From Cryobacterium luteum (GTDB lineage: Bacteria > Actinomycetota > Actinomycetes > Actinomycetales > Microbacteriaceae): DNA of 64,000 bases. The translations under genes and the position numbers were made by a program. The notes below the pieces were generated by a model. It was not told the origin of the DNA, made no database searches, and worked only from the letters and a program-made list of their open reading frames with translations. Positions within the stretch are counted from its first letter, which is position 1. Each line of letters begins with the position of its first letter. This document shows positions 27,529 through 46,016 of this stretch, piece after piece. The stretch lies in contig NZ_FOCN01000009.1 in the NCBI RefSeq assembly GCF_900110125.1, positions 62,001-126,000 of the forward strand, written 5' to 3'.

Positions 27529-29028
27529 CTACTGGTTCTGGGGGAAGCCCAGGTTGATGCCGCCGTGGCTCGGGTCCAGCCACCGACTCGTCACGGCCTT
27601 CTCACGGGTGAAGAAGTTCACGCCGGCGGGGCCGTAGGCCTTGGCGTCACCAAACAGGGAGTTCTTCCAGCCGCCGAAGGAGTGGTACGCGACCGGCACC
27701 GGAATCGGCACGTTGATGCCGACCATGCCGACCTGCACCTCGTTCTGGAACCGGCGAGCGGCTCCGCCGTCGTTGGTGAAGATGGCAGTGCCGTTGCCGT
27801 ACTGGCTCGCGTTTATCAGGTCGAGGCCCTCCTGATAGGTGGCCACCCGTACGATCGACAACACCGGGCCGAAGATCTCGTCGAGGTACACGGCCGAATC
27901 GACGCTGACCTTGTCGAACAGGGTCGGGCCGAGCCAGAAGCCGTTCGGGTCGCCGTCAACCTTGACACCGCGACCGTCGATGACGATGTCGGCACCGTCA
28001 GCCTGGGCGATGTCGATGTAGCCGGCGACCTTGTCGCGGTGCACCTGGGTGATCAGCGGTCCCATATCGCAGTTGCGGGTTCCGTCACCCACGGTGAGGC
28101 CCTTGACCCGTTCGGCGATCTTCGCGATGAGCTCGTCGGCGACGGGTTCGACGGCGACGATGACGCTGATCGCCATGCAGCGCTCACCGGCGGATCCGAA
28201 ACCGGCGTTGACGGCGGCATCCGCTGTCAGGTCGAGGTCGGCGTCCGGCAGCACCAGCATGTGGTTCTTGGCTCCGCCGAGCGACTGAACGCGCTTGCCG
28301 TGCTTGGCCGCGGTCTCGTAGATGTAGCGGGCGATCGGGGTGGAGCCGACGAAGGAGATGGCCTGCACGTCGGGGTGCACGAGCAGCGCGTCGACGGCCT
28401 CCTTATCGCCGTGTACGACGTTGAGCACCCCGGCGGGAAGTCCGGCTTCGGTGAACAGTTCGGCGAGCCAGTTCGAAGCACTCGGGTCTTTCTCGCTCGG
28501 CTTGAGCACGACGGTGTTGCCGGCCGCGATGGCGATCGGGAAGTACCAGAGCGGCACCATGGCCGGAAAGTTGAACGGGCTGATGATGCCCACGACGCCG
28601 AGGGACTGGCGCAGCGTGTACACGTCGACGCCGGTCGAGACGTTCTCGGAGTACTCCCCCTTGGACAGGTGCGGCATTCCGAGCGCGAATTCGACGACCT
28701 CGAGCCCGCGGATGATCTCACCGAGCGCGTCAGAGGTGACCTTGCCGTGCTCGGCGGTGAGGATCTCGGCGAGGTCACCCTTGCGCGCGTTAAGCAGCTC
28801 GCGAAAGTTGTACATGATGGTCTGGCGGCGGGCCTGGCTCATATCGCGCCAGGCCGGGTAGGCGGCCTGGGCGACCGCGACGGCGTCGTCGAGGTCGGCC
28901 GTGCTGGCCAGCAACACGTTCTTGGCAACCTGGCCGGTGGCCGGGTTGTAGACGGGTGCGGTGCGGGTGGACGTGCCGGCGGCCGGTGCGCCGTTGACGT
29001 AGTGCGTGATGGTGGGGAGGTCGGTCAT
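27529..29028 (-). CDS. mmsA: CoA-acylating (methyl)malonate-semialdehyde dehydrogenase
   Basis: 499 residues, family length. The aldehyde dehydrogenase fold is complete; NAGFGSAGERCMAIS holds the catalytic Cys and SFVGSTPIA lies in the coenzyme domain, both as in MmsA/IolA. It turns malonate semialdehyde (or methylmalonate semialdehyde) into acetyl-CoA (or propionyl-CoA) plus CO2 with NAD+ and CoA. It follows the aminotransferase by 25 bases in the pyrimidine-degradation cluster and would carry out its last step, clearing the product made from beta-alanine. Confidence 0.93.
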   Translation of the reverse strand: MTDLPTITHYVNGAPAAGTSTRTAPVYNPATGQVAKNVLLASTADLDDAVAVAQAAYPAWRDMSQARRQTIMYNFRELLNARKGDLAEILTAEHGKVTSDALGEIIRGLEVVEFALGMPHLSKGEYSENVSTGVDVYTLRQSLGVVGIISPFNFPAMVPLWYFPIAIAAGNTVVLKPSEKDPSASNWLAELFTEAGLPAGVLNVVHGDKEAVDALLVHPDVQAISFVGSTPIARYIYETAAKHGKRVQSLGGAKNHMLVLPDADLDLTADAAVNAGFGSAGERCMAISVIVAVEPVADELIAKIAERVKGLTVGDGTRNCDMGPLITQVHRDKVAGYIDIAQADGADIVIDGRGVKVDGDPNGFWLGPTLFDKVSVDSAVYLDEIFGPVLSIVRVATYQEGLDLINASQYGNGTAIFTNDGGAARRFQNEVQVGMVGINVPIPVPVAYHSFGGWKNSLFGDAKAYGPAGVNFFTREKAVTSRWLDPSHGGINLGFPQNQ

Positions 29029-29053: not shown

Positions 29054-30376
29054 TTAGGAAAGAAGGTCGAGGCTGAGCACCTCGTCGTAGATGGCGAGCG
29101 CCTCAGCCACCTCGTCGTCGGTGACGACACAGGGCGGCACGACGTGGATGCGGTTCTCCATGAGAAACGGCAGCAGGCCGCGACCGAGCAGTTCGGCCTT
29201 GACGCGGGCCATGACGGCGGCGCTCACCGGTTCGCGGGTGTCGAGGTCGGTCACGAGTTCGACCGCCCAGAACACTCCGACACCGCGCACGTCGCCGATG
29301 ATCGAGTGCTTGGCCTGCAGGGCTTTCAGGCCCGGCTCGAGCACGTCGCGGCCGATGCGGGCGGCGTTCTCAACGATGCCCTCGGCCTCCATCGCGTCGA
29401 GGGCGCCGACGATCGACGCCATGGCGAGCGGATGCCCGCTGTAGGTGAGTCCGCCGGGAAAAACCGTCTCGTCGAAGTCGGCGGCGATGGCGTCGGAGAT
29501 GACCACGCCACCGGTGGGCACATACCCGGAGTTGACGCCCTTGGCGAAGGTGATCAGATCGGGAACGACGTCATAGGCCTGGAAGGCGAACCAGTTTCCG
29601 GTGCGGCCAAAGCCGCACATGACCTCGTCGAGGATGAGCACGATGCCGTACTTGTCGCAGAGCGCACGAACGCCGGGCAGGTAACCGGCCGGCGGCATCA
29701 TGATCCCCGCGGTACCGGGAATCGACTCGAGCAGAATGGCGGCGACCGACGCTACCCCTTCGCCCTGAATGACGCGTTCGAGGTGGTGCAGCGCACGGGC
29801 GCATTCCTCGGCCTCGCTGGTGGCCCAGAATTCGCTGCGGTAGAGGAATGGTCCGAAGAAGTGCACGTGGCCGCGCGCATATTCGTTGGGAATGCGGCGC
29901 CAGTCGCCGGTCGCGACCACGGCCGCACCGGTGTTGCCGTGGTACGACTTGTAGAGCGAGAGCACCTTGTCGCGTCCGGTGTGCAGGCGGGCCATGCGCA
30001 TGGCGTTCTCATTCGCATCCGCTCCCCCGTTGGTGAAGAACACCTTGTTGAAGCCGGCCGGGGCCCGGTCGGTGATGCGTTTGGCGGCCTCGCCACGGGC
30101 GAGGTTGGCCGTTGAGGGCGCGATGGTGGTCAGCAGCGCGGCCTGCTCTGTGATGGCCTGCACCACGGCCGGATGCTGATGGCCGATATTCACGTTCACC
30201 AGCTGACTCGAGAAGTCCAGATAATGTCGACCGTCATGATCCCAGACGCGGCAGCCCAACCCGCCGGCGATGACGAGCGGCTTTAATGCCGCCTGTGCCG
30301 ACCAGGAATGGAAGACGTGCGCCCGGTCGAGTTCGCTGGTGCGCGCGTTGAGGCTTTGGGTAATGGTGTCAGTCAC
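29054..30376 (-). CDS. class III aminotransferase, probable beta-alanine (omega-amino acid) transaminase
   Basis: 440 residues from the GTG at 30376; the frame is open further up but unrelated to the family. Fold-type I markers: FFTNGGADANENAMRMAR, KSYHGNTGAAV, ILDEVMCGFGRTG and TFAKGVNSGYVPTGG, where the Lys binds pyridoxal phosphate. In this cluster the obvious reaction is beta-alanine plus an oxo acid to malonate semialdehyde, feeding the MmsA protein downstream. A GC-rich hairpin (30426-30456) precedes the gene, so expression may be partly uncoupled from the transporter genes. Confidence 0.9.
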   Translation of the reverse strand: MTDTITQSLNARTSELDRAHVFHSWSAQAALKPLVIAGGLGCRVWDHDGRHYLDFSSQLVNVNIGHQHPAVVQAITEQAALLTTIAPSTANLARGEAAKRITDRAPAGFNKVFFTNGGADANENAMRMARLHTGRDKVLSLYKSYHGNTGAAVVATGDWRRIPNEYARGHVHFFGPFLYRSEFWATSEAEECARALHHLERVIQGEGVASVAAILLESIPGTAGIMMPPAGYLPGVRALCDKYGIVLILDEVMCGFGRTGNWFAFQAYDVVPDLITFAKGVNSGYVPTGGVVISDAIAADFDETVFPGGLTYSGHPLAMASIVGALDAMEAEGIVENAARIGRDVLEPGLKALQAKHSIIGDVRGVGVFWAVELVTDLDTREPVSAAVMARVKAELLGRGLLPFLMENRIHVVPPCVVTDDEVAEALAIYDEVLSLDLLS

Positions 30377-30425
30377 GAATATCGCTGGCTTTCTCTGTGG
30401 GTGGTGTGAATCGGAAAGTTTGTGG

Positions 30426-30456
30426 GGCCGGGCGGCCCGGTCGGGGCCGCCCGGCC
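30426..30456 (-). terminator. GC-rich hairpin after the ABC binding-protein gene
   Basis: A perfect 13-bp stem (30426-30438 with 30444-30456) with a five-base loop, in the 88-base gap between the binding-protein stop and the aminotransferase start. In the direction of transcription it is followed by a mixed CCACAAACTTT tract, so it may act as a partial terminator or an mRNA-stabilising structure rather than a full stop. Confidence 0.6.
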
Positions 30457-30464
30457 GGGTGTAG

Positions 30465-31610
30465 TTAGTTGCCGCCCTCGTTGAGGGTGACCTCGGTGGG
30501 CGTCCAGTCGGCACCCTTCACGTCGACGCCGTCGGCCGTCAGCTCGTCGAGCGCCTGCTGCACGTACTCGTTGGAGTAGGCGGTGGCGGGCGGTTCGGTG
30601 GTGATGATGGTCGCGCCGGTCTCGTTCTTGGTGTTGAGGGCGATGTCGACCGTGTTGGCCCAGGCAGCGTCATCGATGAGTCCGACGCCATTTTCCGAGG
30701 GGAAGATGAGCTTGCTGACCTCGTTGGTCATCCACAGCTGGTGGCTCTGGCCGAGCGAGGAGCCCGCGGCGGTCACGATGGCCGCGGCTTCTTCGGGGTT
30801 GGTGCCGGCGTAGATCCAGCCCTTGATGGAAGCCTTGATGAACTTCACCGTGTTGGCGGCGTAGTCCGCGTCGCTCTCCAGCTGGTCGGCATTGGCCCAG
30901 ATGGCGTCCTGGAGCATGGCCGTACCCTCGTCGTTCCAGTCGATGACGTTGAGCTCATCGGGCTGGTACAGCTCATTGGTGTCGGGGTTCACGGTCTCGA
31001 GCACCTGGGCGTATTCGTTGTAGGTCATCGCCTGGGCCGCATCGATGTCGCCGGAGAGGAAGGCGTTCATGTCGAAAGCCTGCTGGATCAGGGAAATATC
31101 ATCGAGAGCGACATCGGCCTGCTGCATGCCGGCGAAGAGTTCCCACTCGTTGCCGAAGCCCCAGCTGCCCACGTTCTTGCCGGCCAGGTCGGCGGCAGTC
31201 TCGATGCCCTGGTCCTTGAAAGAGATCTGGGTGGTGGCGCTGCGCTCGAAGATCTGGGCGACGTTGGTGATGTTCGCGCCCTGCTCGATCGAGCCGAGAA
31301 CCTTGGGAACCCACGAAATGGCGTAGTCCACGTCACCGGCCGCGAGCACATCCTGCGGCACGATATCGGGGCCACCCTCGACGATGGTCACGTCGAGTCC
31401 CTCATCTTCGTAGAAGCCCTGGTCGACGGCGGCGTAGTACCCGGCGAACTGGGCTTGGGCGACCCACTGCAGTTGCAGGGTGATGGGCGTGAGTTCGCCG
31501 GCGGCATCCGGTGAAGGGGTGTCGCTGGCGGTGCTGCAGCCAGACAGTACGAGCGCGCCGACAGCCGTGATCGCGCCGACGGTGCCGAGCCAGTTGATGC
31601 GGTGTTTCAT
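30465..31610 (-). CDS. ABC transporter substrate-binding lipoprotein, NMT1/THI5-like
   Basis: 381 residues from the ATG at 31610 with an AGGAGG site before it. The signal peptide ends in LVLSGC. The mature part (TPITLQLQWVAQAQFAGYYAAVDQGFYEDEGLDVTIVEGG) is the NMT1/THI5-like fold that binds pyrimidine precursors, sulfonates or related compounds. With two permeases and an ATPase in the same operon as dihydropyrimidinase, it most likely captures a pyrimidine, hydantoin or a breakdown product outside the membrane. Confidence 0.92.
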   Translation of the reverse strand: MKHRINWLGTVGAITAVGALVLSGCSTASDTPSPDAAGELTPITLQLQWVAQAQFAGYYAAVDQGFYEDEGLDVTIVEGGPDIVPQDVLAAGDVDYAISWVPKVLGSIEQGANITNVAQIFERSATTQISFKDQGIETAADLAGKNVGSWGFGNEWELFAGMQQADVALDDISLIQQAFDMNAFLSGDIDAAQAMTYNEYAQVLETVNPDTNELYQPDELNVIDWNDEGTAMLQDAIWANADQLESDADYAANTVKFIKASIKGWIYAGTNPEEAAAIVTAAGSSLGQSHQLWMTNEVSKLIFPSENGVGLIDDAAWANTVDIALNTKNETGATIITTEPPATAYSNEYVQQALDELTADGVDVKGADWTPTEVTLNEGGN

Positions 31611-31623
31611 GGTGCCTCCTTGG

Positions 31624-32400
31624 TTACTGGTGCTGTGTGTGGTTGCGGGTGACGAGCGTCTCCACGATGAGAGCTGCACAGTAGAAGGCGAGGCCGAGAA
31701 TGATGGAGCCGAGCACGTAGGCCCAGGCGAGGCCGTAGTTGCTGCTCGATGCGGCCGAGGTGATCGATTTGCCGAGGCCACCGACCGGTCCGCCGAAGTA
31801 TTCGGCGATGAGGGCGCTGATCACGGCGAGCGACGATGCTATGCGCAGCCCGGTGAAGACGAAGGGCAGCGCGGTCGGCAGAGTGACGGCCCGGGTGGCC
31901 TGCCAGTTGGTGACGGCGTAGGCGCGCATGAGGTCGCGGTGAACCGGGCGCACCATGCGTAGCCCCTTGAGAGTGTTGAAGTAGACCGGCACGAACACGG
32001 CGAGCGCCGCGACGAGCTGCCGGGCGGTCTCAGCGCCGGCGCCGAACATCGTGTAGAGCACCGGGGCGAGCGCCACGATCGGCACCACCGAGAGGGCGGC
32101 GACGACCGGAGCGGCCATCCCGTCGAACAGGCGGGCCAGCGCCGACACGATCGCGAGCGCAATGCCGAGCAGGGCACCGATGACGAGGCCGATCAGGGCA
32201 TTGCGACCGGTGACCGCCATGCCGTTGGCCACGTTCTGCAGGTTGGCGGTGAATTCGGCGCCGATCGCAAACGGAGCGGGCAGAATGAACGCCTTGATGG
32301 CGAGCCCGGTGACGAGACCCTGCCACAGCAGAATGACGGCCACCCCGAACACGATCGGCGCGAGCACGATCTGGAGCAGACCTGGCTGAGCGGTTCTCAT
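31624..32400 (-). CDS. ABC transporter permease (SsuC/TauC/ThiX type)
   Basis: 258 residues, about six helices, with the BPD_transp_1 EAA loop as AYAVTNWQATRAVTLPTALPFVFTGLR. Its ATG overlaps the stop of the ATPase gene upstream (ATGA). It pairs with the longer permease at 33233-34195 to form a heterodimeric channel for the NMT1-type importer. Confidence 0.92.
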   Translation of the reverse strand: MRTAQPGLLQIVLAPIVFGVAVILLWQGLVTGLAIKAFILPAPFAIGAEFTANLQNVANGMAVTGRNALIGLVIGALLGIALAIVSALARLFDGMAAPVVAALSVVPIVALAPVLYTMFGAGAETARQLVAALAVFVPVYFNTLKGLRMVRPVHRDLMRAYAVTNWQATRAVTLPTALPFVFTGLRIASSLAVISALIAEYFGGPVGGLGKSITSAASSSNYGLAWAYVLGSIILGLAFYCAALIVETLVTRNHTQHQ

Positions 32401-33236
32401 CGCGTCTCAACCCCGCGAACGCCCGTCGGGTTGATTCCGGCTTCGTCACCGTGCAGCAGCTCACGCACCTGGCTGAGCGCGTGGAAGAATCCTTCGTCTT
32501 CACGCAGGTCTTCACCGCGGCCACTCATTTCGCCCAGTCCCACACTCACGATGGAACGGATGCGTCCGGGTCTGGGCGACATGACCACTACCCGGTTGGA
32601 GAGGAACACCGCCTCGGGGATGGAGTGGGTCACGAAGACCACGGCCGCCTGCGTTTCGGCGCAGATGCGCACAAGTTCGTTCTGCATGCGCTCGCGGGTC
32701 ATCTCGTCGAGGGCGCCGAACGGTTCGTCCATCAGTAGCAGGCTCGGGCTTTCGGCGAGCGAGCGGGCGATCGCGACGCGCTGCTGCATGCCGCCGGAGA
32801 GCTGGTCGGGGTAGTGGCTCGCGAAGTCGGCGAGCCCGACCAGGGCGATGAGTTCGGCTGCGCGCGCCCGCCTGGCCGCCTTACCGACCCCGTGCAGTTC
32901 GAGCGGCAGTTCGATGTTGCCCGCCACGGTGCGCCAGGGCAGCAGGCCGGCCTGCTGAAAGGCGATGCCGTAGTCCTGGTCGATGCGGGCCTGTCGGGCC
33001 GGCTTGCCGAACACCTCGATGCTGCCGCTCGTCGGCACGTCGAGGTCGGCGACGAGCCGCAGCAGGGTGCTCTTGCCGCATCCGCTCGGCCCGATCAGGC
33101 TGACGAATTCGCCGGGCGCGACCGTGAGGCTCACATCGTCGAGAGCGGTGACGCCGGAGCCTTTGCGGGCCGCGAAGATGCGCGTCACACCCTGAACACG
33201 TACCGCGGGCACATCGTTAGTCATGCTCGTGCTCAT
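32397..33236 (-). CDS. ABC transporter ATP-binding protein (SsuB/TauB type)
   Basis: 279 residues from the ATG at 33236, which overlaps the upstream permease stop. Walker A GPSGCGKST, Q-loop QQAGLLPW, signature LSGGMQQRV, Walker B LLLMDEPFGALD and the switch His in VTHSIPEAV are all intact. It is the shared ATPase of the two permeases in the pyrimidine cluster. A longer open frame to 33341 is not supported because it runs into the permease gene. Confidence 0.94.
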   Translation of the reverse strand: MSTSMTNDVPAVRVQGVTRIFAARKGSGVTALDDVSLTVAPGEFVSLIGPSGCGKSTLLRLVADLDVPTSGSIEVFGKPARQARIDQDYGIAFQQAGLLPWRTVAGNIELPLELHGVGKAARRARAAELIALVGLADFASHYPDQLSGGMQQRVAIARSLAESPSLLLMDEPFGALDEMTRERMQNELVRICAETQAAVVFVTHSIPEAVFLSNRVVVMSPRPGRIRSIVSVGLGEMSGRGEDLREDEGFFHALSQVRELLHGDEAGINPTGVRGVETR

Positions 33237-34195
33237 GTAGACACTTCTCCCCTGCGAAAACGGCGAAGGAACAGGCCGATCAGACCGACAAATCCGGCGG
33301 CAACGAGGCCGACCAGGATCGATCCGAAGATGGGCGCCCAAGGCTTGCCCGGGTCACCGCCGGCGGCGCCGGCGTACTCCACGATGAGCCGGCCAATGCC
33401 ACCGCGCAGACCGATGGACACCTCGGCCACGACGCTGCCGACGACGGCGCTGACCGCGGCCAGGCGCAGGGCCGGCAGCAGGTAGCCGACGCTGGCCGGC
33501 AGGCGCAGCCGCCACAGGATCTTCCACCAGCCCACCGCGTAGCAGCGCATGAGGTCGACGTGGTTGGCGTCGGGCGAACCCAGGCCGCGCAGGGCGCCGA
33601 TCGAGACGGGGAAGAACGCGAGGTAGGAGGCGATCAAGGCCACCGACATCCAGCTTTCCCAGGTGAATTCGCCGAACTGGAGCTGCGCGCCCCAGCGCCG
33701 CACGAGCGGGGCGATCGCGATGAGGGGCACGGTCTGGCTGAGTATGATCCAGGGCAGAATGGCCGACTCGGCCAGGCGAAGGCGCTGCATCAGCAGTGCG
33801 AGCGCGAGCCCGACGGTCACGCCGACCAGCCAGCCGACCGCTGCGATGCCGAGGGTGAACAGCGAACCGGCGAGCACCGCCTGCCACAGCGGCAGAGCGG
33901 ATGCCGCGCCCGTCACCGGCTCGAACAGTCGCTCGAACATGACCGCGAGGTGCGGCATCGCGAGGTCGGTCGTGCGCGGCAGCACCGTGACGCCGCCGAG
34001 CACAACGCCGTCGGCCGGCCCGACGGTTTTGTAGAGCTCCCAGACCAGGCCGAGCAGCGCCAGGCCGGCCAGACCGAACACGCCCGCGCGCAGGCGCGGG
34101 CGCACAACGGTGCTCCGGCGGTGGGGTACCCGCAGTTCAGGTACTCCGAGCGCGCCGCGGTTGAGCGGGGCGGTCCGCTCGGTCTGGGTGGGCAT
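33233..34195 (-). CDS. ABC transporter permease, second subunit
   Basis: 320 residues. A 45-residue basic N-terminal extension (RRSTVVRPRLR) comes before the first helix; the EAA loop reads CYAVGWWKILWRLRLPASVGYLLPALR. It is a BPD_transp_1 permease of the same type as the one at 31624. It starts nine bases after the LLM oxidoreductase stop, so it belongs to the same long operon. Confidence 0.92.
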   Translation of the reverse strand: MPTQTERTAPLNRGALGVPELRVPHRRSTVVRPRLRAGVFGLAGLALLGLVWELYKTVGPADGVVLGGVTVLPRTTDLAMPHLAVMFERLFEPVTGAASALPLWQAVLAGSLFTLGIAAVGWLVGVTVGLALALLMQRLRLAESAILPWIILSQTVPLIAIAPLVRRWGAQLQFGEFTWESWMSVALIASYLAFFPVSIGALRGLGSPDANHVDLMRCYAVGWWKILWRLRLPASVGYLLPALRLAAVSAVVGSVVAEVSIGLRGGIGRLIVEYAGAAGGDPGKPWAPIFGSILVGLVAAGFVGLIGLFLRRFRRGEVST

Positions 34196-34203
34196 CCGCT
34201 TGG

Positions 34204-35220
34204 CTATTTCTTGGCCGTGATGGCGTCGGTCAGGGCCGGGATCACGGTTTCGCCGTAGACCCGCATGGTCTCTTCCTTGTTGTCGTGCTGCAGGTAGCCG
34301 GCGAACTGGTCGACGCCGAGGTCTTTGAGCGCCTCGAGCTTCTCGATGTGGTCCCTGGCCGTGCCGAGCAGGCAGAACCGGTCCACGATCTCGTCGGGCA
34401 CGAACGCGGCGTGCTCGTTGCCGGCTTTGCCGTGCTGGTTGTAGTCGTAGCCCTCGCGGTCCTTGATGTAATCGGTGAGCGCTTTCGGCACGGCCGAGTC
34501 AGCACCGTACTTGGCGACGATGTCGGCCACGTGGTTGCCGACCATGCCGCCGAACCAGCGGCACTGGTTACGCATGTGATCCCAGTCCTCACCGATGTAG
34601 GCGGGCGCGGCGACGCAGAACTTGATCGCCAGGGGGTCCCGGCCGGCGTTGGAGGCTGCGGTGCGTACGCTGTCGATCATCCACTCGGCGACATCGAGGT
34701 CGGCCATCTGCAAAATGAAGCCGTCGCCGACCTCGCCGGCGAGCTTGAGTGCGAGAGGACCGTAGGCGGCGACCCAGACGTCGAGGCTCGAGCCACGACT
34801 CCACGGAAATTGCACGGTGGCACCGTTGTACGCGACCGGGCGGGAGTTGGCGAGCTCCCGAATGACGTGGATGGACTCGCGCAGCGTCTTCAGCGTGGTC
34901 GGGGCGCCGTTGGTGGTGCGCACCGCCGAGTCGCCGCGGCCGATGCCGCAGATGGTGCGGTTGCCGTACATCTCGTTGAGGGTCGCATAAGCGGATGCTG
35001 TGACGGTCCAGTCGCGGGTGGCCGGGTTGGTGACCATGGGGCCGACGATGATCTTGCTGGTCTCCGCCAGGATTCGGCTGTAGATCACGTAGGGTTCCTG
35101 CCAGAGCAGGTGTGAGTCGAAGGTCCAGACGTGGCTGAACCCGTGCGCCTCGGCCAGTTTGGCCAGTTGCACGGTGCGCGCCGACGGCGGGTTGGTCTGC
35201 AGTACTGCTCCAAAATCCAT
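34204..35220 (-). CDS. LLM-class flavin/F420-dependent oxidoreductase, TIGR03842-like
   Basis: 338 residues with the luciferase-like (bacterial luciferase) TIM-barrel pattern: MDFGAVLQTNPP, LAKLAEAHGFSHVWTFDSHLLWQEPY, KIIVGPMVTNPATRDWTVTAS, RTICGIGRGDSAVRT, DVWVAAYGPLALKLAGEVGDGFILQM. From memory it matches the LLM family TIGR03842, predicted to use coenzyme F420 and often found with hydantoinase genes; I could not verify this. It lies nine bases from dihydropyrimidinase and from the permease, in the slot where a dihydropyrimidine dehydrogenase would be expected. It could reduce the pyrimidine C5-C6 double bond with F420H2, or act oxidatively like RutA. Confidence 0.85.
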   Translation of the reverse strand: MDFGAVLQTNPPSARTVQLAKLAEAHGFSHVWTFDSHLLWQEPYVIYSRILAETSKIIVGPMVTNPATRDWTVTASAYATLNEMYGNRTICGIGRGDSAVRTTNGAPTTLKTLRESIHVIRELANSRPVAYNGATVQFPWSRGSSLDVWVAAYGPLALKLAGEVGDGFILQMADLDVAEWMIDSVRTAASNAGRDPLAIKFCVAAPAYIGEDWDHMRNQCRWFGGMVGNHVADIVAKYGADSAVPKALTDYIKDREGYDYNQHGKAGNEHAAFVPDEIVDRFCLLGTARDHIEKLEALKDLGVDQFAGYLQHDNKEETMRVYGETVIPALTDAITAKK

Positions 35221-35229
35221 GTCAGCCCC

Positions 35230-36663
35230 TTAGATGAGGTACTGGCTCAGGCCGCGCTTGATGTAACGACCGTCACCCTTGGTGCCGAGGTAGGTGTTAT
35301 CGTCGACGACGACTTTGCCGCGGGAGATGACGGTGTCGACGTGGCCGTCGATCTCGTAGCCTTCCCAGGCGGAGTAGTCCATGTTCATGTGGTGGGTCTT
35401 GTCTACTCCAATGGAGGTGTGTCCGTTCGGGTCGTAGATCACCACGTCGCCGTCGGCGCCTGGGGCGATCACGCCTTTCTGGCCGTACATGCCGAACATG
35501 CGGGCCGGGGTGGTTGAGCACACCTCGACCCAGCGTTCGAGCGAGATCTTGCTGTCGACGACGCCCTGGTAGAGCAGGTCCATGCGGTGTTCGACGGAGC
35601 CGATGCCGTTGGGAATCTTGGAGAAGTCGGTCAGGCCCATGTCTTTCTGGCCCTTCATGCAGAACGGGCAGTGGTCGGTGGAGACCATCTGAATGTCGTT
35701 CGTTCGCAGGCTTTGCCACATGTGGTGCTGGTGGCCCTCGGCTTTGGCGCGCAGCGGCGTGGAGCAGACCCACTTGGCGCCCTCGAACCTGCCCCATTCC
35801 TCGCTCTCTGCCCCCAGGTTGTCTTCGAGTGAGAGGTAGAGGTATTGCGGGCAGGTCTCGCCGAACACGTTCTGGCCGCTATCGCGAGCCTGCGCAATCT
35901 GGTCCACGGCCTGCTTGGCCGACACGTGCACTACATAAAGAGGAGCGCCGGTGAGGTTGGCGAGCATGATCGCGCGGTGGGTGGCCTCTTCCTCGGCCTG
36001 CCAGGGCCGGGTGAGGCCGTGGTAGAGCGGGCCCGTGTTGCCGGCGGCGACCGCCTGCTGCACGAGCAGATCGATGACGCTGCCGTTCTCGGCGTGCATC
36101 ATGATCATGCTGCCGTTCGTCGCCGCGCGCTGCATAGCCTTGACGATCTGGCCGTCGTCGCTGAGGAACACCCCCTTGTAGGCCATGAACAGCTTGAAGC
36201 TCGTGACACCCTCGTCGACGAGTTCGTCCATCGCCGTCAGCGAGCTGTCTTGCACATCACTGAGAATCTGATGAAAACCGTAATCAATGGCGCACTGTCC
36301 GGCGGCCTTCTGCTGCCAGGTGGCGTAGCGCTCGAGTACGTCTTCGCCGGCGTACTGCACGACGAAGTCGACGATGCTCGTGGTGCCGCCCCAGGCTGCC
36401 GCGCGGGTGCCGGTTTCGAAGGTGTCACTGGCCTGGGTGCCGCCGAACGGCATCTCCATGTGGGTGTGGGCGTCGATGCCGCCGGGAATGACGTATTTGC
36501 CGCCGGCGTCGATGACACGGTCGACGTTGGCCGCCACATCGAAGCCGAGCAGGGTCGAGCCCGGTGCGAGTACGGCGGCGATTTTCTCGCCGTCGATGAG
36601 CACGTCGGCGAGCCCTCGGCCGGTGGCGTTGACCACGGTACCGTTCTTGATCAAAGTCTTCAT
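35230..36663 (-). CDS. hydA: dihydropyrimidinase/D-hydantoinase
   Basis: 477 residues. Binuclear-zinc amidohydrolase motifs: DAHTHMEMPFGGT (HxH), FKLFMAYKGVF with the Lys expected to be carboxylated, VVHVSAKQ, and STDHCPF with the metal-binding Asp region. It opens the ring of dihydrouracil/dihydrothymine (or 5-substituted hydantoins) to the N-carbamoyl amino acid in the cytoplasm. The start at 36663 has GGAGG upstream and the gene follows the amidohydrolase by 26 bases; the LLM gene follows by nine. Confidence 0.95.
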   Translation of the reverse strand: MKTLIKNGTVVNATGRGLADVLIDGEKIAAVLAPGSTLLGFDVAANVDRVIDAGGKYVIPGGIDAHTHMEMPFGGTQASDTFETGTRAAAWGGTTSIVDFVVQYAGEDVLERYATWQQKAAGQCAIDYGFHQILSDVQDSSLTAMDELVDEGVTSFKLFMAYKGVFLSDDGQIVKAMQRAATNGSMIMMHAENGSVIDLLVQQAVAAGNTGPLYHGLTRPWQAEEEATHRAIMLANLTGAPLYVVHVSAKQAVDQIAQARDSGQNVFGETCPQYLYLSLEDNLGAESEEWGRFEGAKWVCSTPLRAKAEGHQHHMWQSLRTNDIQMVSTDHCPFCMKGQKDMGLTDFSKIPNGIGSVEHRMDLLYQGVVDSKISLERWVEVCSTTPARMFGMYGQKGVIAPGADGDVVIYDPNGHTSIGVDKTHHMNMDYSAWEGYEIDGHVDTVISRGKVVVDDNTYLGTKGDGRYIKRGLSQYLI

Positions 36664-36689: not shown

Positions 36690-37553
36690 CTAGGGCGCGA
36701 CGAGGGGCTCGTAGGAGTCGGGGCGACGGTCGCGGTAGAACTGCCAGGAGTTGCGTACCTCACGGATTACGCCGAGGTCGAGGTCGCGCACCAGGATCTC
36801 CTCGGTGTCGGTCGAGGCGCGTTCTCCCACGTAGTTGCCCTTGGGGTCAACGAAGTAGGAGCTACCGTAGAAGGTCACGGCTTCGTCGCCGAACTCGGCT
36901 TGTTCGTTGCCGATGCGGTTGTTCGCGCCGACGTAGTACTGGTTGGCGACGGCGGCGGCGGGCTGTTCGAGTTCCCACAGGCGGTTCGACAGCCCGGGTT
37001 TGGTGGCCGAAGGGTTGAACACGATCTCGGCGCCGTTCAGGCCGAGCGCACGCCAGCCCTCCGGGAAGTGGCGGTCGTAGCAGATGTAGACGCCGATCTT
37101 GCCGTACTTCGTGTCGAAGACCGGATAGTCGGTGTTGCCCGGTCGAAAGTAGAACTTTTCCCAGAACTGCGGCAGGTGCGGGATGTGGTGTTTGCGGTAC
37201 TTGCCGAGGTAGGTTCCGTCGGCGTCGATGACCGCGGCGGTGTTGTAGAGCACGCCGGGCTGTTCTTCTTCGTACATCGGCACGACGATGACCATCTTGA
37301 ACTCGCTCGCGAGCTTTTGGAATCGTTCGACGATGGGGCCGGGTACGGCCTGCGCGTAGTCGTAATATTTGGCGTCCTGCACGATGCCGAAGTACGGGCC
37401 GTGGAAGAGTTCCTGGAAGCAGATCACCTGCACGCCCTGGGCGGCGGCGGTGCGCACGAACCCTTCGTGCTTCTGGATCATGGATTCTTCGTCGCCGGTC
37501 CAGGTGGCCTGAGTGATGGCGGTTCGAACAATCTGGCTTGTGTCAACAGTCAT
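36690..37553 (-). CDS. nitrilase-superfamily N-carbamoyl-beta-alanine amidohydrolase (beta-ureidopropionase)
   Basis: 287 residues from the ATG at 37553, with GGAAGG before it; a Met ten codons upstream lacks such a site. The catalytic triad is visible: Glu in ICFQELFHGPYF, Lys in KYRKHHIPH, Cys in VYICYDRHFPEGWR, the latter two in forms typical of beta-ureidopropionase. It hydrolyses N-carbamoyl-beta-alanine to beta-alanine, CO2 and ammonia. It is the first gene of the minus-strand cluster, next to the divergent MocR-type regulator. Confidence 0.93.
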   Translation of the reverse strand: MTVDTSQIVRTAITQATWTGDEESMIQKHEGFVRTAAAQGVQVICFQELFHGPYFGIVQDAKYYDYAQAVPGPIVERFQKLASEFKMVIVVPMYEEEQPGVLYNTAAVIDADGTYLGKYRKHHIPHLPQFWEKFYFRPGNTDYPVFDTKYGKIGVYICYDRHFPEGWRALGLNGAEIVFNPSATKPGLSNRLWELEQPAAAVANQYYVGANNRIGNEQAEFGDEAVTFYGSSYFVDPKGNYVGERASTDTEEILVRDLDLGVIREVRNSWQFYRDRRPDSYEPLVAP

Positions 37554-37589
37554 GCTGTGCCTTCCACTTGCTTCGTTAGTCAAGGGCCG

Positions 37590-39204: not shown

Positions 39205-40206
39205 ATGAATCGAATCATCGTGCGCACGGCCGGGGGAGTCACCGCACTGGTCGCCGCGTCCCTGCTGCTCAGCGGATGCGCCGCAACGGTCACCCCCGCC
39301 GCCACGCCCGCCAAAACCCCGGCGACCAGCGCGAACTACCCGCTCACGGTGCTCAATTGCGAATCGACCGTCACGGTCACGTCGGCCCCTGAACGCATCG
39401 TGTCGATCAAGTCCTCGGCGACCGAGCTGCTGCTCGCGCTGGGGGTCGGTGACCGCATCGTGGGCTCGGCCTTCCTCGACGGCCCGCTGCCAAAATCGCT
39501 CGCCACCGCCGGAGCCGATCTCAACGTGATCAGTGATTTCCTTCCCGGCCAGGAGGCCGTGCTCGGTCTGAACCCTGACTTCATCTATGGCGGTTGGGAG
39601 TCCAATTTCAGCGCCGACGGGGTGGGTGAACGCGCTGCCCTCGAAGCGCTCGGCGTGGGCAGCTATGTCTCACCGGCCGCGTGCAAGGGCGAGCGGATGC
39701 CCGACCCGCTGACCTTCCCGACGGTGTTCTCCGAAATTGAGGAAGCCGGCAAGATCTTCGATGCGCAGCCCGCCGCAGACGAACTCGTGCGCAGCCTGGA
39801 ATCCGATCTCGCCGGTCTGGTGCCATCCACCGACGGTGCCACCGCGCTCTGGTATTCCAGCGGCACGACCACCCCCTACGTCGGCGCCGGCATCGGTTCG
39901 CCAGCCATGATCATGGAGGCCGCCGGGCTCACCAACATCTTTGCCGACGTCAGTGACACCTGGACGTCGGTGGGCTGGGAGTCGATCATCGAGGCCAATC
40001 CGGGCATCATCGTGCTCGTGGATGCCAGCTGGAACACGGCCGCCGCGAAGATCGCCCACCTCGAATCGGACCCGGCCACGCAGGTGCTCGACGCCGTGAA
40101 GAACCAGCGCTACATCATCCTGCCGTTCGCCTCGACCGAGGCCGGCCTGCGCAACGTCGAAGCCGCCGCGTCGACCATCGCGCAGCTGGCCGCTCTGAAC
40201 GAGTGA
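39205..40206 (+). CDS. ABC transporter substrate-binding lipoprotein, putative F420-0 (siderophore/B12-type) binding protein
   Basis: 333 residues. A lipoprotein signal ends in LLLSGC. The rest is a helical-backbone (BtuF/FhuD-like) binding protein: ERIVSIKSSATELLLALGVGDRIVGSAFLDG, FLPGQEAVLGLNPDFIYGGWESNF, GWESIIEANPGIIVLVD. Together with the permease and ATPase that follow and with cofD, it matches the actinobacterial transporter that TIGRFAM curators named putative F420-0 ABC transporter on genomic-context grounds; the true substrate is unproven. Confidence 0.85.
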   Translation: MNRIIVRTAGGVTALVAASLLLSGCAATVTPAATPAKTPATSANYPLTVLNCESTVTVTSAPERIVSIKSSATELLLALGVGDRIVGSAFLDGPLPKSLATAGADLNVISDFLPGQEAVLGLNPDFIYGGWESNFSADGVGERAALEALGVGSYVSPAACKGERMPDPLTFPTVFSEIEEAGKIFDAQPAADELVRSLESDLAGLVPSTDGATALWYSSGTTTPYVGAGIGSPAMIMEAAGLTNIFADVSDTWTSVGWESIIEANPGIIVLVDASWNTAAAKIAHLESDPATQVLDAVKNQRYIILPFASTEAGLRNVEAAASTIAQLAALNE

Positions 40207-40234
40207 CACCCTCCCCCGTCTCGCGGAGGCTGGA

Positions 40235-41251
40235 GTGACTCGGGCTCGCTACCTCGGGTGGCTCGTCGCTGCCGCCATCGCATTGATATTGGTGTGCGGG
40301 ATGGCGGTGACCATCGGGCCGGCCGCGGTGAGCCTCGCGCAGGTGGCCGGCAGCATCGGCGCGCACCTGGGCCTCGCGACCGAGCCGGTGCCGCTGCTCA
40401 TCGACTCGATCGTCTGGCAGTTGCGCCTGCCCCGGGTGCTCACCGCCGCTCTGGTCGGTGTCGGCCTCGCGCTGAGCGGAGCGGTGATGCAGAGCGTGAC
40501 GCGCAACCCGCTCGCCGACCCCTACCTGCTCGGGCTGTCGAGCGGGGCATCCGTCGGCGCGGTCTGCGCGGTCATTCTCGGTATCGGCTTTGTTTTGCCG
40601 GCCGCCGCTTTTACCGGCGCGCTGCTGGCCCTCGTGGCGACGCTGAGCATCGCCAAGGTCGGCGGCACGATCACTCCGGTGCGGGCGGTGCTCGCCGGGC
40701 TGGCCATCGCGCAGCTCGCGGGAGCCCTCACCTCATTCATCATCTTCTGGGCGGCCAAGGGTGACTCTTACCGGGAGATCCTCAACTGGCTGCTGGGTTC
40801 GGTGGCCGGCGCCACCTGGACCAGCGTCGCGATTGCGGTGACGGCGGTCACCGTCGTGGGCACCGGCATCCTCGTCTCGGCGACCCGGCTCGACGCGTTC
40901 GCGTTCGGCGACACCTCGGCGGCGAGCCTCGGCATCAACGTGAACCGCACCCGCTGGGCGTTGCTCGGGGCCGTCGCCCTGCTGACCGGTTCGATGGTGG
41001 CCGTCAGTGGCTCGATCGGGTTCGTCGGGCTCATTCTGCCGCACCTCGTGCGCGGTATCAGCGGGCCGGGACACCGCCGGCTGCTGCCGCTCGTCGCGGT
41101 CTGCGGTGCCCTGTTTTTGGTCATCGCCGACACGCTCGCCCGCACGGTGTTCGACCCGCGCGAACTGCCGGTGGGCATCATCACCGCGTTCATCGGCGTG
41201 CCCGTGTTCATTCTGCTCATCAAGAGAAAGAAGTCACACCTGTGGGCGTAG
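40235..41251 (+). CDS. FecCD-type ABC permease, putative F420-0 transporter
   Basis: 338 residues, about nine or ten helices, with FecCD marks: LRLPRVLTAALVGVGLALSGAVMQSVTRNPLADPYLLGLSSGAS near the N-terminus, SFIIFWAAKGDSYREILNWLLGS, LGINVNRTRW and SIGFVGLILPHLVRGISGPGHRRLLP. The GTG start has GGAGG upstream. Its end overlaps the ATPase start by ten bases, indicating coupled translation. Confidence 0.9.
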   Translation: MTRARYLGWLVAAAIALILVCGMAVTIGPAAVSLAQVAGSIGAHLGLATEPVPLLIDSIVWQLRLPRVLTAALVGVGLALSGAVMQSVTRNPLADPYLLGLSSGASVGAVCAVILGIGFVLPAAAFTGALLALVATLSIAKVGGTITPVRAVLAGLAIAQLAGALTSFIIFWAAKGDSYREILNWLLGSVAGATWTSVAIAVTAVTVVGTGILVSATRLDAFAFGDTSAASLGINVNRTRWALLGAVALLTGSMVAVSGSIGFVGLILPHLVRGISGPGHRRLLPLVAVCGALFLVIADTLARTVFDPRELPVGIITAFIGVPVFILLIKRKKSHLWA

Positions 41252-42015
41252 ACCTCGACCGGCTGTCCTTCGCCATCGACGGCGCCCCGATTTTGCGCGA
41301 CGTGTCGGCGTCGCTGCCGACCGGCACGGTGACCGGCCTGCTCGGCCCGAACGGCGCCGGTAAATCCACCCTGCTGCGGCTCATCGCCGGCATCGACACA
41401 GCGGATGCCGGCAGCGTCACGCTCGACGGCGTCACGATCGGCTCGTTGAGCCGGCGCGACGCGGCCCGACGCATTGCCCTGCTCGAACAGAATGCGGCGC
41501 CGAGCGTGGAGCTGACCGTGCTCGAGGTCGTGCTGCTCGGGCGCATTCCGCATCGCACGAAACTCATGGGTTCGTTCAGCGGCCACGAGGATCACGCCGT
41601 CGCGTTCGACGCCCTCGCAGCCGTCGGCGCCGGGGCGCTTGTCGATCGCTCCTGGCACACGCTGAGCGGCGGGCAGCAGCAGCGGGTGCAGATTGCCCGA
41701 GCGATGGCGCAGCAACCGAGCTTGCTCCTGCTCGACGAACCGACCAACCACCTCGACGTGAGCGCCCAGCTGTCGCTGCTCGGCCAGGTGCGGGATCTCG
41801 GGGTGACGGCGATCATGGCCCTGCACGACCTCAACCTCGCGTCGGCCTATTGCGACCATATTCTTCTGCTCGACGGCGGCATGCTCGTGGCTTCGGGCAC
41901 GCCAGCCGAGGTGCTCACCCCCGAGGTCATCGGCAACGTCTACGGGGTGGAGTGCTTCATCCTGAAACATCCGCGCGGCGGGCATCCGGTCATTGTGTAT
42001 TCGGCGGCGTCATGA
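41242..42015 (+). CDS. ABC ATP-binding protein, putative F420-0 transporter
   Basis: 257 residues. Walker [31 protein letters not shown] and MALHDLNLASAY are intact, the pattern of FecE/BtuD-like ATPases. The stop overlaps the cofD start (ATGA), so transporter and F420 biosynthesis gene are translated together, the best evidence that the transported compound relates to F420. Confidence 0.92.
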   Translation: MGVDLDRLSFAIDGAPILRDVSASLPTGTVTGLLGPNGAGKSTLLRLIAGIDTADAGSVTLDGVTIGSLSRRDAARRIALLEQNAAPSVELTVLEVVLLGRIPHRTKLMGSFSGHEDHAVAFDALAAVGAGALVDRSWHTLSGGQQQRVQIARAMAQQPSLLLLDEPTNHLDVSAQLSLLGQVRDLGVTAIMALHDLNLASAYCDHILLLDGGMLVASGTPAEVLTPEVIGNVYGVECFILKHPRGGHPVIVYSAAS

Positions 42016-43004
42016 TGAGTCCCGATCTGACGCGTGTCACCGTGTTGGCGGGCGGCGTCGGCGGTGCCCGGTTCACCCGCGGCCTGCTGGCCCACCTCGC
42101 CGTCACGGCGCCCGAGGCGGCCGTGACGGTGATCGTCAACACCGGTGACGACATGTGGCTGGATGGGCTGCGCATTTGCCCCGACCTGGACACCGTCATG
42201 TACACCCTCGGTGGCGGGATCAACGAGGAGCAGGGCTGGGGGCGTCCCGATGAGTCCCGGCGGGCTTCGTCCGAGATCGCCGCCTATGGTCGCGGCTGGT
42301 CCTGGTTCACCCTCGGCGATCTCGACCTCGCGACGCACATTGTGCGCACCGACCTGCTGCGCAGCGGATCAACTCTGAGCGAGGCGACCGAATTCCTCTG
42401 TCGCCGCTGGCAGCCGGGGGCCAGGCTGCTGCCGATGAGTGACCAGCCGGTGGAAACCCACGTATGCCTTGCCGAGAATATCGACGATCACGCCGCGGGT
42501 GACTATATTCACTTTGAGGAATGGTGGGTTCGTTACCGGGCCCGGGTCGCGATCACGAGGTTCGAGCAGCGCGGACTGGCCGAGGCCGTGGCCGCGCCGG
42601 GCGTACTCGAGGCCATCACCGCGGCCGACCTCGTGGTGCTGCCGCCGTCAAACCCGGTCGTCTCGGTCGGAACGATCCTCGCGGTGCCGGGGGTGCGCGA
42701 GGCGCTGCGTTCCACGGCGGCCCGGGTGGTGGGCGTGTCTCCGATCATCGGCGGCGCGGCGGTGCGCGGCATGGCCGATGCCTGCCTGCACACGATCGGC
42801 GTTGAGACCAGCGCCCTCGCCGTCGGCCGGCATTACGGCGCCCGCAGCGCCGGTGGACTCCTCGATGCCTGGCTGATCGACGAAACGGATGCCGCCGCGC
42901 TGCCGGCGCTGGCGGCCGCCGACATCCGTTCTGCTGCCGTGCCATTGTGGATGACCGACTTGGCGTCGACGACCGCGATGGCCGCTGCCGTGTTGATGCT
43001 GTGA
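42012..43004 (+). CDS. cofD: 2-phospho-L-lactate (or PEP-derived) transferase, F420-0 synthesis
   Basis: 330 residues from the ATG at 42012 (a second ATG follows immediately). VTVLAGGVGGARFTRGL and IVNTGDDMWLDGLRICPDLDTVMYTL are the substrate-binding N-terminal motifs of CofD/FbiA; FTLGDLDLATHIVRTDLLR and LPPSNPVVSVGTIL follow in order. It transfers the phosphoenolpyruvyl- or phospholactyl-GDP moiety onto Fo to form (dehydro-)F420-0. Coupled to the upstream transporter. Confidence 0.94.
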   Translation: MMSPDLTRVTVLAGGVGGARFTRGLLAHLAVTAPEAAVTVIVNTGDDMWLDGLRICPDLDTVMYTLGGGINEEQGWGRPDESRRASSEIAAYGRGWSWFTLGDLDLATHIVRTDLLRSGSTLSEATEFLCRRWQPGARLLPMSDQPVETHVCLAENIDDHAAGDYIHFEEWWVRYRARVAITRFEQRGLAEAVAAPGVLEAITAADLVVLPPSNPVVSVGTILAVPGVREALRSTAARVVGVSPIIGGAAVRGMADACLHTIGVETSALAVGRHYGARSAGGLLDAWLIDETDAAALPALAAADIRSAAVPLWMTDLASTTAMAAAVLML

Positions 43005-43005
43005 T

Positions 43006-43671
43006 TCAGAGCAGCGCGCTCGTATGCGGCCCGAGCCCGAGAGCGCGGGCCGCAGCTAAATCGGCCGCGGTGTCGACGTCGCGGTGCAGGGAGGAGCTTG
43101 CCGGCAGGGCGAGCACCACGTGGCCGGCGGCCTCGTGCACGGCGCGGGAGTCGAGACCGAACCGTGGTGTGAGAGCCACGCCCGCGCGGGCGAACAGGGT
43201 CGTCGTTCCCACTCCTTCGGCGTCGGCCACCATCGAGCGCGGGTGCGCTGCGGCGAGGGCGAATCCGGTTTCGAGGTCGGCCGGTCGCAGGGCGGGCAGG
43301 TCCCCGGTCATCACGGCCAGATTCGCTTGGGGGCAGGTCTGGCGAGCAGCCGCCAGGCCCTGCTCGATCGCGGCGTTCAAGCGGGCCTGGCCCGTTTCCG
43401 CCCAGGTTTCCGCCCAGGTTTCTGCCGCGGGGTGTTCCGGGACGACGATCGCGCCGAGCTCGGTGAGCAGCTCGCCCAGCCGTGCATTGCCCGTCACCAC
43501 GAACACGTACTCCACCGCGGATGCCGCCACCAGCGCCGCCACCGTATCGAGCGCGAAGGCGTCGGCGAGCGCCGCTCGCCCAGGGACGCCCCTGAGTCGG
43601 CTCTTCGCCCCTACGCTCCCCTTCACCGGAACGACGACCACCCAGCGTGGTTCGGCGCGCAATTCGTCCAT
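43006..43671 (-). CDS. cofC: 2-phospho-L-lactate/PEP guanylyltransferase
   Basis: 221 residues. WVVVVPVKGSVGAKSRLRG is the nucleotidyltransferase loop, LAVMTGDLPALRPADL the GDLP metal site, and TTTLFARAGVALTPRFGLDS the substrate-binding part of CofC/FbiD. It activates phospholactate or PEP with GTP for CofD. It is convergent with cofD, the stops only one base apart. A 12-bp in-frame repeat gives AETWAETWAET (43394-43426), a family-untypical insertion. A TAGCGT box lies six bases before the start. Confidence 0.9.
   Translation of the reverse strand: MDELRAEPRWVVVVPVKGSVGAKSRLRGVPGRAALADAFALDTVAALVAASAVEYVFVVTGNARLGELLTELGAIVVPEHPAAETWAETWAETGQARLNAAIEQGLAAARQTCPQANLAVMTGDLPALRPADLETGFALAAAHPRSMVADAEGVGTTTLFARAGVALTPRFGLDSRAVHEAAGHVVLALPASSSLHRDVDTAADLAAARALGLGPHTSALL
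43394..43426. repeat. 12-bp in-frame tandem repeat inside cofC
   Basis: GTTTCCGCCCAG occurs at 43394-43405 and 43406-43417, and a partial third copy with one change runs to 43426. It encodes repeated AETW on the minus strand. Confidence 0.85.
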
Positions 43672-43779: not shown

Positions 43780-44130
43780 ATGTCACTCACCACCCAGTCG
43801 CGCACGCTCCCCATGGCGATTGTCACCTACCTCGAGCGCAGCGCGAGCGCCAAGCCCGCCTCAGCCAGAGCGACCTTCACCGAGAACGCTGTCGTCGTCG
43901 ATGATGGCAAGACCTACACCGGCGAAGCTGCCATCGCCGCCTGGCTGGCCGGCTCCGCTGCGGAGTTCGAGTACACGACCACCCAGCTGCGCGTTGAGAA
44001 AGACGAAACGGCCACGACCGTCGTCAACCGCGTTGAGGGCAACTTTCCCGGCCGCAGCGTCGACCTGAACTACCGCTTCGAGCTCGACGCCGACAGTGGC
44101 CTGATTCAGGCCCTCACGATCTCGATCTAA
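43780..44130 (+). CDS. SnoaL/NTF2-like protein
   Basis: 116 residues from the ATG at 43780, which has GGAGG five bases upstream. Pattern [47 protein letters not shown] then paired strands ([38 protein letters not shown]) is the SnoaL-like cone fold. Function unknown. Its last 17 bases overlap the end of cofE on the opposite strand, so the two genes are convergent and overlapping. Confidence 0.8.
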
Positions 44131-44929
44131 GCCCGGCGGCAAACCCCTCGGCGTACGCTTCCGCCGTGCCCAGCCGAAACATGTCGGTGTCGCTCGGGCG
44201 CTGCAGCGCCCGAGCGCCGACCGCATCGAGGTCGCCGACCAGCCGGCCGAGTCCCCGCACAACGACGACCGGGTTACCGCTGGTCTTGCCCTTGACCAGA
44301 TCGGCGGCACCGGCGATCTCGTCGGCAACCGCAGCGACGGTGACGTCGAGGCGGCGACCGGAGGCATCCGCTGTGCCGCGCAGGTCGTCGAGCACCGCAA
44401 GTCCGGCCGCGCCGATGGCGATGTCGGTCTGGCCCTCGCGCCATGGGCGCCCGGCGGTGTCGGTGATGAGCACGCCGAGTCGCAGCCCGGTGCGCTCACG
44501 CAAAGCCGAGCAGATGGCCCGTGCCGACCGGTCCGGATCGACCGGCAGCAGCAAGACGAGACCGTCGGGCGCGTTGCTCGTGTCGACGCCGGCCGCGGCC
44601 ATCACCAGTCCCTGCCGGTTTTCGACGATGCGGGTCACCCCGCCCGGGTGCTCCCGCGAGGCCACGACGCGCACGGTCTCGTCGGTGATCGCTTGCTCCC
44701 GGTCGGCAGCCAGCACGGTGCGGCCCTCGGCCTTGGAGACGATCTTGCTGGTCACCGCAACAATGTCGCCATCGAGCAGGCGCGACTGTGCGGCCTCCGC
44801 GATGAGGGCGGCCAGGTCGTCGCCGGCCCTGATCTCGCCGAATCCTCCGAGCGTGAACACCTTGAGGCCGAACAGGTTCATGGCGCCGACTTCTGCAGCG
44901 GCGGCGTCGGGCAGCGCGTCGTGCGGCAT
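44114..44929 (-). CDS. cofE: coenzyme F420-0:L-glutamate ligase, stand-alone
   Basis: 271 residues, only the CofE domain: [77 protein letters not shown]. It adds glutamate residues to F420-0 using GTP. Mycobacterial FbiB is about 450 residues because of a C-terminal nitroreductase-like domain that reduces dehydro-F420-0; that domain is absent here. The ATG follows the stop of the LLM gene immediately (TAAATG), so the two are coupled. Confidence 0.92.
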
Positions 44930-45931: not shown

Positions 45932-46016
45932 TTGTGACCTTCCTGTGCATCGGTGTTTTGTCCCCATTCAAGCGCAACACGAGCGGGCGCGCATTCGATA
46001 CCGCGAAGGCGCCAGC

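Follow-up and report, generated by a model that had tools for sequence, protein, structure and literature searches.

A probable F420H2-dependent uracil reductase of the LLM class in a pyrimidine operon of Cryobacterium luteum

An LLM-class oxidoreductase encoded in a pyrimidine operon of Cryobacterium luteum is probably an F420H2-dependent reductase of uracil (and thymine) which replaces PydA, the substrate being assigned from gene context. The gene lies in a window of 64,000 nucleotides, which is the whole stretch of DNA analysed, and the relevant features are collected in Table 1. The use of F420 by this protein is very likely, as judged from genomic and predicted-fold evidence. The known dihydropyrimidine dehydrogenase PydA/PreAT performs the same step as the one proposed here, in the same pathway and next to a dihydropyrimidinase. 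However, it is unrelated to the LLM protein, since it contains FMN and Fe-S domains and takes its electrons from NAD(P)H or ferredoxin (described in parts of PMC7332683).

Table 1. Features of the pyrimidine operon and of the neighbouring F420 genes in the window
Feature	Coordinates	Strand	Basis
CoA-acylating (methyl)malonate-semialdehyde dehydrogenase	27529..29028	-	TIGR01722, 673.8 bits vs cut-off 448.5
Class III aminotransferase; putative beta-alanine transaminase from operon context	29054..30514	-	NF004718 ("hypothetical protein" subfamily), 740 bits vs cut-off 472
NMT1/THI5-type substrate-binding protein of importer	30465..31781	-	PF09084, 127.7 bits
ABC importer permease 2	31624..32400	-	ORF, similarity to permease 1
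ABC importer ATPase, chosen in-frame ATG; longer TTG start possible	32397..33236	-	taurine/nitrate-type ATPase matches, none over cut-off
ABC importer permease 1	33233..34195	-	PF00528
TIGR03842 LLM-class oxidoreductase, proposed F420H2-dependent uracil/thymine reductase	34204..35220	-	TIGR03842, PF00296, fold nearest Mer (Z 35.4)
GPMVTNP codons (residues 60-66), aligned with Mer non-prolyl cis-peptide turn behind F420	35023..35043	-	alignments; Mer Gly61-Val62 (parts of PMC11094777)
Dihydropyrimidinase	35230..36663	-	TIGR02033, 549.5 bits vs cut-off 393.25; best PDB match 3sfw dihydropyrimidinase, E 2e-144
Carbon-nitrogen hydrolase, likely beta-ureidopropionase	36690..37583	-	PF00795
Predicted F420-0/FO importer: binding protein, permease, ATPase	39205..42015	+	TIGR03868, TIGR03869 over cut-off
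cofD, 2-phospho-L-lactate transferase, chosen start	42012..43004	+	TIGR01819, 346.2 bits vs cut-off 257.45
cofC	43006..43671	-	TIGR03552, 128.3 bits vs cut-off 105
cofE/fbiB-type F420-0:glutamate ligase	44114..44929	-	TIGR01916, 240.5 bits vs cut-off 180.65
Second LLM, F420 glucose-6-phosphate-dehydrogenase family, possible F420H2 source	44930..45967	-	TIGR03557, 281.7 bits vs cut-off 210.4

The interval 34204-35220 is exactly filled by an intact minus-strand ORF of 338 codons (35220..34204; product 338 aa), and its plus-strand reading is interrupted by a stop. The product belongs to the NCBIfam family TIGR03842 (588.6 bits, cut-off 295.45) and has PF00296 as its sole Pfam match (224.6 bits). 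Relatives are encoded in at least 587 public genome stretches; the best 80 of these, at 71-96% identity, were retained, and the closest among the matches listed are two Cryobacterium sp. at 96%. Because of these family scores and the many encoded relatives, the ORF is a real gene rather than a chance one. TIGR03842 is a hypothetical equivalog named "LLM class F420-dependent oxidoreductase" whose model gives no substrate or pathway, and the pyrimidine role is the present proposal. Of the 11 LLM genes that were found in the source genome, the TIGR03842 gene alone has hits to the queries from the pyrimidine operon at a distance of up to 1.5 kb. In two relatives, G225 (C1:2193491-2194476) and G237 (C1:121370-122355), the TIGR03842 match is split across two frames, which reflects either an assembly error or a broken gene.

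The sequence-only reading had embedded this gene between the dihydropyrimidinase and the importer permease, with nine bases on each side. The embedding holds, as does the nine-base gap to the dihydropyrimidinase stop (35221-35229), whereas eight bases (34196-34203) separate the gene from the permease start. Along the minus strand, the amidase and dihydropyrimidinase genes come before the LLM gene; after it come the four importer genes (permease, ATPase, second permease, and NMT1-type binding protein) and then those for the class III aminotransferase and the CoA-acylating semialdehyde dehydrogenase. The amidase, a carbon-nitrogen hydrolase, is likely a beta-ureidopropionase by its sequence relationships; it scores 262 bits with TIGR03381 (N-carbamoylputrescine amidase), below the cut-off of 410, and its best PDB match is the N-carbamoylputrescine amidohydrolase 5h8i, followed by the beta-ureidopropionases 8pt4 and 6ftq. 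Dihydropyrimidinase and N-carbamoyl-beta-alanine amidase, which together define reductive pyrimidine degradation, are thus both predicted in the operon. At this level, every step from dihydrouracil to acetyl-CoA has a candidate gene, and the first step has no candidate except the LLM gene. A MocR-type regulator, divergently encoded at 37705-39072, adjoins the amidase gene and perhaps controls the operon; its best NCBIfam match is PtsJ, below the cut-off, and such a regulator was matched in 52 of the 80 related loci (the best 80 of at least 587).

In a sample of 246 genomes from Actinomycetota, TIGR03842 is over the cut-off in 53, PreA in two, neither of which has TIGR03842, and RutA in none. 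In the source genome, no PydA-type first enzyme, PreA, or RutA was found over the cut-off. These results uphold the earlier assignment of the LLM protein to the dehydrogenase slot. Identity of the LLM protein itself with PydA/PreA was rejected, as PF00296 is its only Pfam domain and no dihydroorotate-dehydrogenase-type domain was found. RutA-like proteins below the cut-off of 498 bits do exist in the phylum sample (the best at 248 bits). Because two TIGR03842 genomes carry such proteins (G225 with 247 bits and G111 with 161 bits), another uracil enzyme may be present there.

It could be supposed that the LLM gene is an accessory or unrelated traveller in the operon, with the first step left to a remote dihydropyrimidine dehydrogenase that escaped recognition, or with imported dihydropyrimidines as the starting point. 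This is very unlikely. The importer could in principle carry dihydrouracil or hydantoin, but in the source genome the PreA profile scores no higher than 36.6 bits (cut-off 335), and the LLM gene is conserved together with the pathway across lineages in which its partners are swapped. The sequence-only reading had reasoned that an accessory role would require an adjoining first-step enzyme, and in line with that argument no known one is present among the neighbours identified.

The cofactor can be approached from sequence profiles and from the predicted fold. After TIGR03842, the next NCBIfam scores of the protein belong to two models of Mer (136-137 bits), far below their cut-offs; it falls outside the Mer family TIGR03555 (136.3 bits, cut-off 348.7) and has Val6 at the place of the catalytic Glu6. 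A profile of 15 members, compared with PDB sequences, gives up to 211 bits with Mer and 98-82 bits with hydroxymycolic acid dehydrogenase, Adf, and FGD, versus at most 58 bits with FMN enzymes; RutA is absent from the 32 PDB entries matched at E 0.001. The structure predicted from 63 sequences has a pLDDT of 86.4 and a pTM of 0.88, with residues 36-41 below a pLDDT of 50. In a fold search with this model, F420 enzymes occupy the first 15 places among PDB entries, with a Z of 35.4-33.6 for Mer, 32.4 for Adf, 30.6 for FGD1 and FGD2, and 29.8-28.3 for other F420 glucose-6-phosphate dehydrogenases. On the FMN side, SfnG and luciferases reach a Z of about 27 and RutA 24.5. Mer, the F420-dependent methylene-H4MPT reductase, therefore provides the nearest solved structures. 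The comparison with MER, FGD, Adf, and RutA structures that the sequence-only reading had suggested, in order to decide between F420 and FMN, points to F420, as do the F420 operons on two plasmids, described below, which end in a TIGR03842 gene. The F420-dependent luciferase-like enzymes have been placed in one clade, according to parts of PMC6279831.

The active site was considered by alignment with Mer of M. jannaschii. In the portions of PMC11094777 concerning this enzyme, F420 is backed by a non-prolyl cis-peptide (Gly61-Val62), the pterin is contacted by Asp96 and residue 178, and the catalytic acid is Glu6; residue 178 is Gln178 in that text and Asn in the aligned sequence. In the LLM protein, the cis-peptide falls on M62-V63, Asp96 on D97, residue 178 on Q171, and Glu6 on Val6. 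V63, T64, N65, P66, and D97 are invariant and Q171 is nearly invariant in an alignment of 15 sequences, which includes one protein (L104, described below) under the TIGR03842 cut-off. The two sequence marks of an F420-type LLM enzyme, a PF00296 barrel and the turn aligned with the cis-peptide, are both found, GPxVTNP being kept in the alignment with Mer. As the turn, D97, and Q171 align while Glu6 is replaced by Val6, features of the F420 site of Mer are kept and the acid for its C1 substrate is gone; this replacement of the catalytic residue counts against the proposal. The stretches DFGAVLQTNPP and GIGRGDSAVRT, once proposed to hold the cofactor, correspond to residues 2-12 and 92-102. The former does not mainly do so, for it contains the place of the catalytic Glu6, and the backstop of F420 is the GPMVTNP turn. 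Family-specific conserved stretches around residues 222-233 and 258-264 distinguish the LLM protein from Mer, and the conserved residues S36, W40, N229, Y258, Y260, and H263 may bind the substrate or donate the proton.

RutA, the uracil monooxygenase, has the LLM fold and the uracil pathway in common with the LLM protein. RutA uses FMN and oxygen and gives other products. A RutA-like, FMN-dependent opening of the uracil ring with oxygen is extremely unlikely for the LLM protein, even though RutA shares its general fold and acts on uracil. RutA identity was rejected, since no match to TIGR03612 was obtained among 24 families at E 0.001, the BLAST comparison with E. coli RutA is no better than E 0.21, and the profile alignment is weak (37% probability). 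Moreover, in the alignment E. coli RutA is without the GPxVTNP turn and without the Asp at the place of Mer 96, and none of the operon genes identified resembles RutB, RutC, or RutF in kind. RutA chemistry would also leave the dihydropyrimidinase without a role.

The neighbourhood of the gene is widely conserved. Among close loci (the best 80 of at least 587), dihydropyrimidinase is present in all 80 and a nitrilase-type amidase in 79. At phylum level, 52 loci were compared at a BLAST E of 1e-15, one for each of the 53 TIGR03842 genomes minus the source genome. An N-carbamoyl amidase occurs in 48 of them (29 of the nitrilase type and 19 of the unrelated M20 type) and dihydropyrimidinase in 38. 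An NCS1 nucleobase symporter is found in 25 and an NMT1-type binding protein in 15, with no locus carrying both. The LLM gene is thus constant while its partners are swapped for nonhomologous ones. In loci of one family (f18, for example L074), the operon runs in the order dihydropyrimidinase, aminotransferase, M20 carbamoylase, NCS1 nucleobase symporter, and LLM, a build that differs from the Cryobacterium luteum operon. Even at 44-49% identity, nine loci (L086-L094) contain the amidase in all cases and dihydropyrimidinase in eight. Neither amidase nor dihydropyrimidinase was seen in four of the 52 loci; L071 and L079 are contigs shorter than 4 kb, whereas L058 and L075 are longer.

The nature of the substrate deserves separate consideration. 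The same operon could harbour an F420 enzyme acting on another compound, such as a hydantoin-type ureide or lactam or a modified or N-substituted pyrimidine, or catalysing an oxidation that supplies F420H2, uracil being reduced by an unrecognised enzyme or lying outside the pathway. The importer and the dihydropyrimidinase leave the ring compound open, and the latter has both dihydropyrimidinases and D-hydantoinases among its PDB matches. A chemical parallel comes from the uric acid clusters of Chloroflexota, where a different luciferase-family enzyme (PF00296), a putative F420-dependent yanthine reductase, is suggested to use F420H2 for the reduction of a ureide heterocycle; the likeness to the LLM protein, drawn from the description in parts of PMC12507026, is close in chemistry, although the pathway is that of purines. 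Such a substrate is nevertheless rather unlikely here. The amidase, the aminotransferase, and the CoA-acylating semialdehyde dehydrogenase indicate beta-alanine and therefore uracil or thymine, the NCS1 nucleobase symporters replace the ABC importer in nearly half of the phylum loci, and, by the profiles used, nothing else fills the first-step slot.

Further relatives link the family to F420 synthesis and bear on the same question. On plasmids of Paracoccus alcaliphilus and Leisingera caerulea (L101 and L102), the genes cofG-cofH-cofD-cofC-cofE-npdG-TIGR03842 follow one another consecutively; the LLM proteins are over the TIGR03842 cut-off (503 and 506 bits) and 42-45% identical to that of Cryobacterium luteum. 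Plasmid records with a match number 14, of which 10 are from Leisingera. No dihydropyrimidinase occurs within 10 kb of these Paracoccus and Leisingera members, which gives some weight to another substrate; because of this absence, the substrate may not be uniform in the family and that of the Paracoccus/Leisingera members may differ. A more distant LLM protein is encoded on a plasmid (L104) of Variovorax sp. PBL-E5, a strain from linuron-contaminated soil. It has 34% identity and 202.7 bits, below the TIGR03842 cut-off, and its gene is surrounded by those for a carbon-nitrogen hydrolase, an amidohydrolase, npdG, cofG, cofH, cofD, cofC, and cofE, so that an F420-dependent ureide pathway is possible on this plasmid.

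The association also emerges from genome counts, which may miss genes in fragmented assemblies. cofD is over the cut-off in 49 of the 53 TIGR03842 genomes versus 84 of the 193 others (Fisher p 2e-11, not corrected for kinship), and CofG (E 1e-30) is found in 46 of 53 versus 83 of 193 (Fisher p 7e-9, likewise uncorrected for kinship). cofD lies within flanks of up to 10 kb in 34 of the 80 related loci (the best 80 of at least 587). CofG was not found in seven of the 53 genomes. In G160 (81% complete) and G119 neither CofG nor cofD was found, and G119 has a CofH fragment.

In the window, cofC, cofD, cofE, and a protein of the F420 glucose-6-phosphate-dehydrogenase family lie 7-11 kb from the TIGR03842 gene. 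The last of these, one base from cofE, also scores 318.1 bits with the FMN-named family TIGR03885, below the cut-off of 398.7. Upstream of cofD there is a predicted F420-0/FO importer whose end overlaps the chosen cofD start by 4 nt. Its scores exceed the cut-offs for TIGR03868 (410.3, cut-off 392.4) and TIGR03869 (458.6, cut-off 437.35), while the ATPase remains below that of TIGR03873 (333.1, cut-off 372.4). The importer is not regarded as a novel FO transporter, since its binding protein and permease match the existing predictions TIGR03868/TIGR03869 ("putative F420-0 ABC transporter").

FO synthase is CofG, and its absence from the source genome counts against the proposal unless salvage occurs. 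In this genome (99.93% complete) neither CofG nor CofH was found, and hence its F420 would come from salvage; no CofG was found in seven related Cryobacterium/Glaciibacter genomes. Since CofG is missing while the predicted F420-0 importer is present, the source genome and these seven relatives probably scavenge the cofactor as FO or F420-0.

This pattern was followed in 48 related genomes with the operon, the search in relatives being for CofG and the CofH search covering ten genomes or records. CofG is missing in 31, and in 29 of these the importer adjoins the pyrimidine operon, cofD, or cofE; it occurs in none of the 17 with CofG, which were checked around cofD as well as around the pyrimidine genes (Fisher 4e-11, uncorrected). 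Presence of the importer and absence of CofG agree in 46 of 48 genomes, the exceptions being G256 and G272; in G225 the importer was seen first and CofG was then found absent. The placement of the importer beside cofD suggests that its cargo in most of these genomes is FO. Six of the 48 lack both cofD and CofG and would need a form of the F420 precursor later than FO. In five of them (L112, L165, L175, L126, and L130) the importer adjoins the operon, and in L126, L130, and L175 it has cofE and an FGD-like gene beside it; in the sixth, Salinibacterium amurskyense (G256), no importer was seen in the 21 kb examined.

The rule is not a general one. Only one of 13 further cofD-positive, CofG-negative genomes, chosen from the phylum sample, follows it: G009, with an importer-like cluster at 32-47% identity about 7 kb from cofD. 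No importer lies near cofD in G062 and G085. A tree of the LLM proteins, trimmed around a motif and leaving out L122, for which no full ORF was obtained, implies at least seven changes of CofG state and gives two well-supported independent pairs, a number too small for a test.

A mechanism can be outlined on this basis. F420 would be reduced to F420H2 by an FGD-type or similar dehydrogenase. The uracil ring would be held by D97 and Q171, which correspond to Asp96 and residue 178 of Mer, and would receive a hydride at C6 from C5 of F420H2, the hydride site and the direction of the reaction being proposals; protonation at C5 of the ring would then yield dihydrouracil. The dihydropyrimidinase would open this ring, the amidase would free beta-alanine, and the aminotransferase together with the semialdehyde dehydrogenase would lead to acetyl-CoA. 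The LLM protein is thus likely to work as Mer and other F420 hydride transferases do, in the place of PydA.

No description of an F420-dependent uracil reductase was found in the open-access literature, to which the search was confined (other licences and preprints lie outside it). The main text of PMC7332683 mentions neither F420 nor luciferase. The F420 review PMC8498797 assigns unknown function to the remaining luciferase-like hydride transferases, and its main text is without any uracil- word.

On balance, the evidence leans towards TIGR03842 as a second, unrelated route to uracil reduction, in which a single-domain, iron-free F420H2 hydride transferase replaces PydA across Actinomycetota, in some lineages on F420 precursors obtained from neighbours. 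If this is true, a function would be given to a widespread F420 family with no named substrate, present in 53 of 246 phylum genomes, and the degradation of uracil by actinobacteria that possess dihydropyrimidinase but not PydA would be explained. A small iron-free enzyme would join the large iron-sulfur flavoproteins to which this step is otherwise ascribed, and in some lineages the use of uracil would depend on a scavenged cofactor. A role for F420 in the physiology of soil actinobacteria would also become directly testable with commercial substrates.
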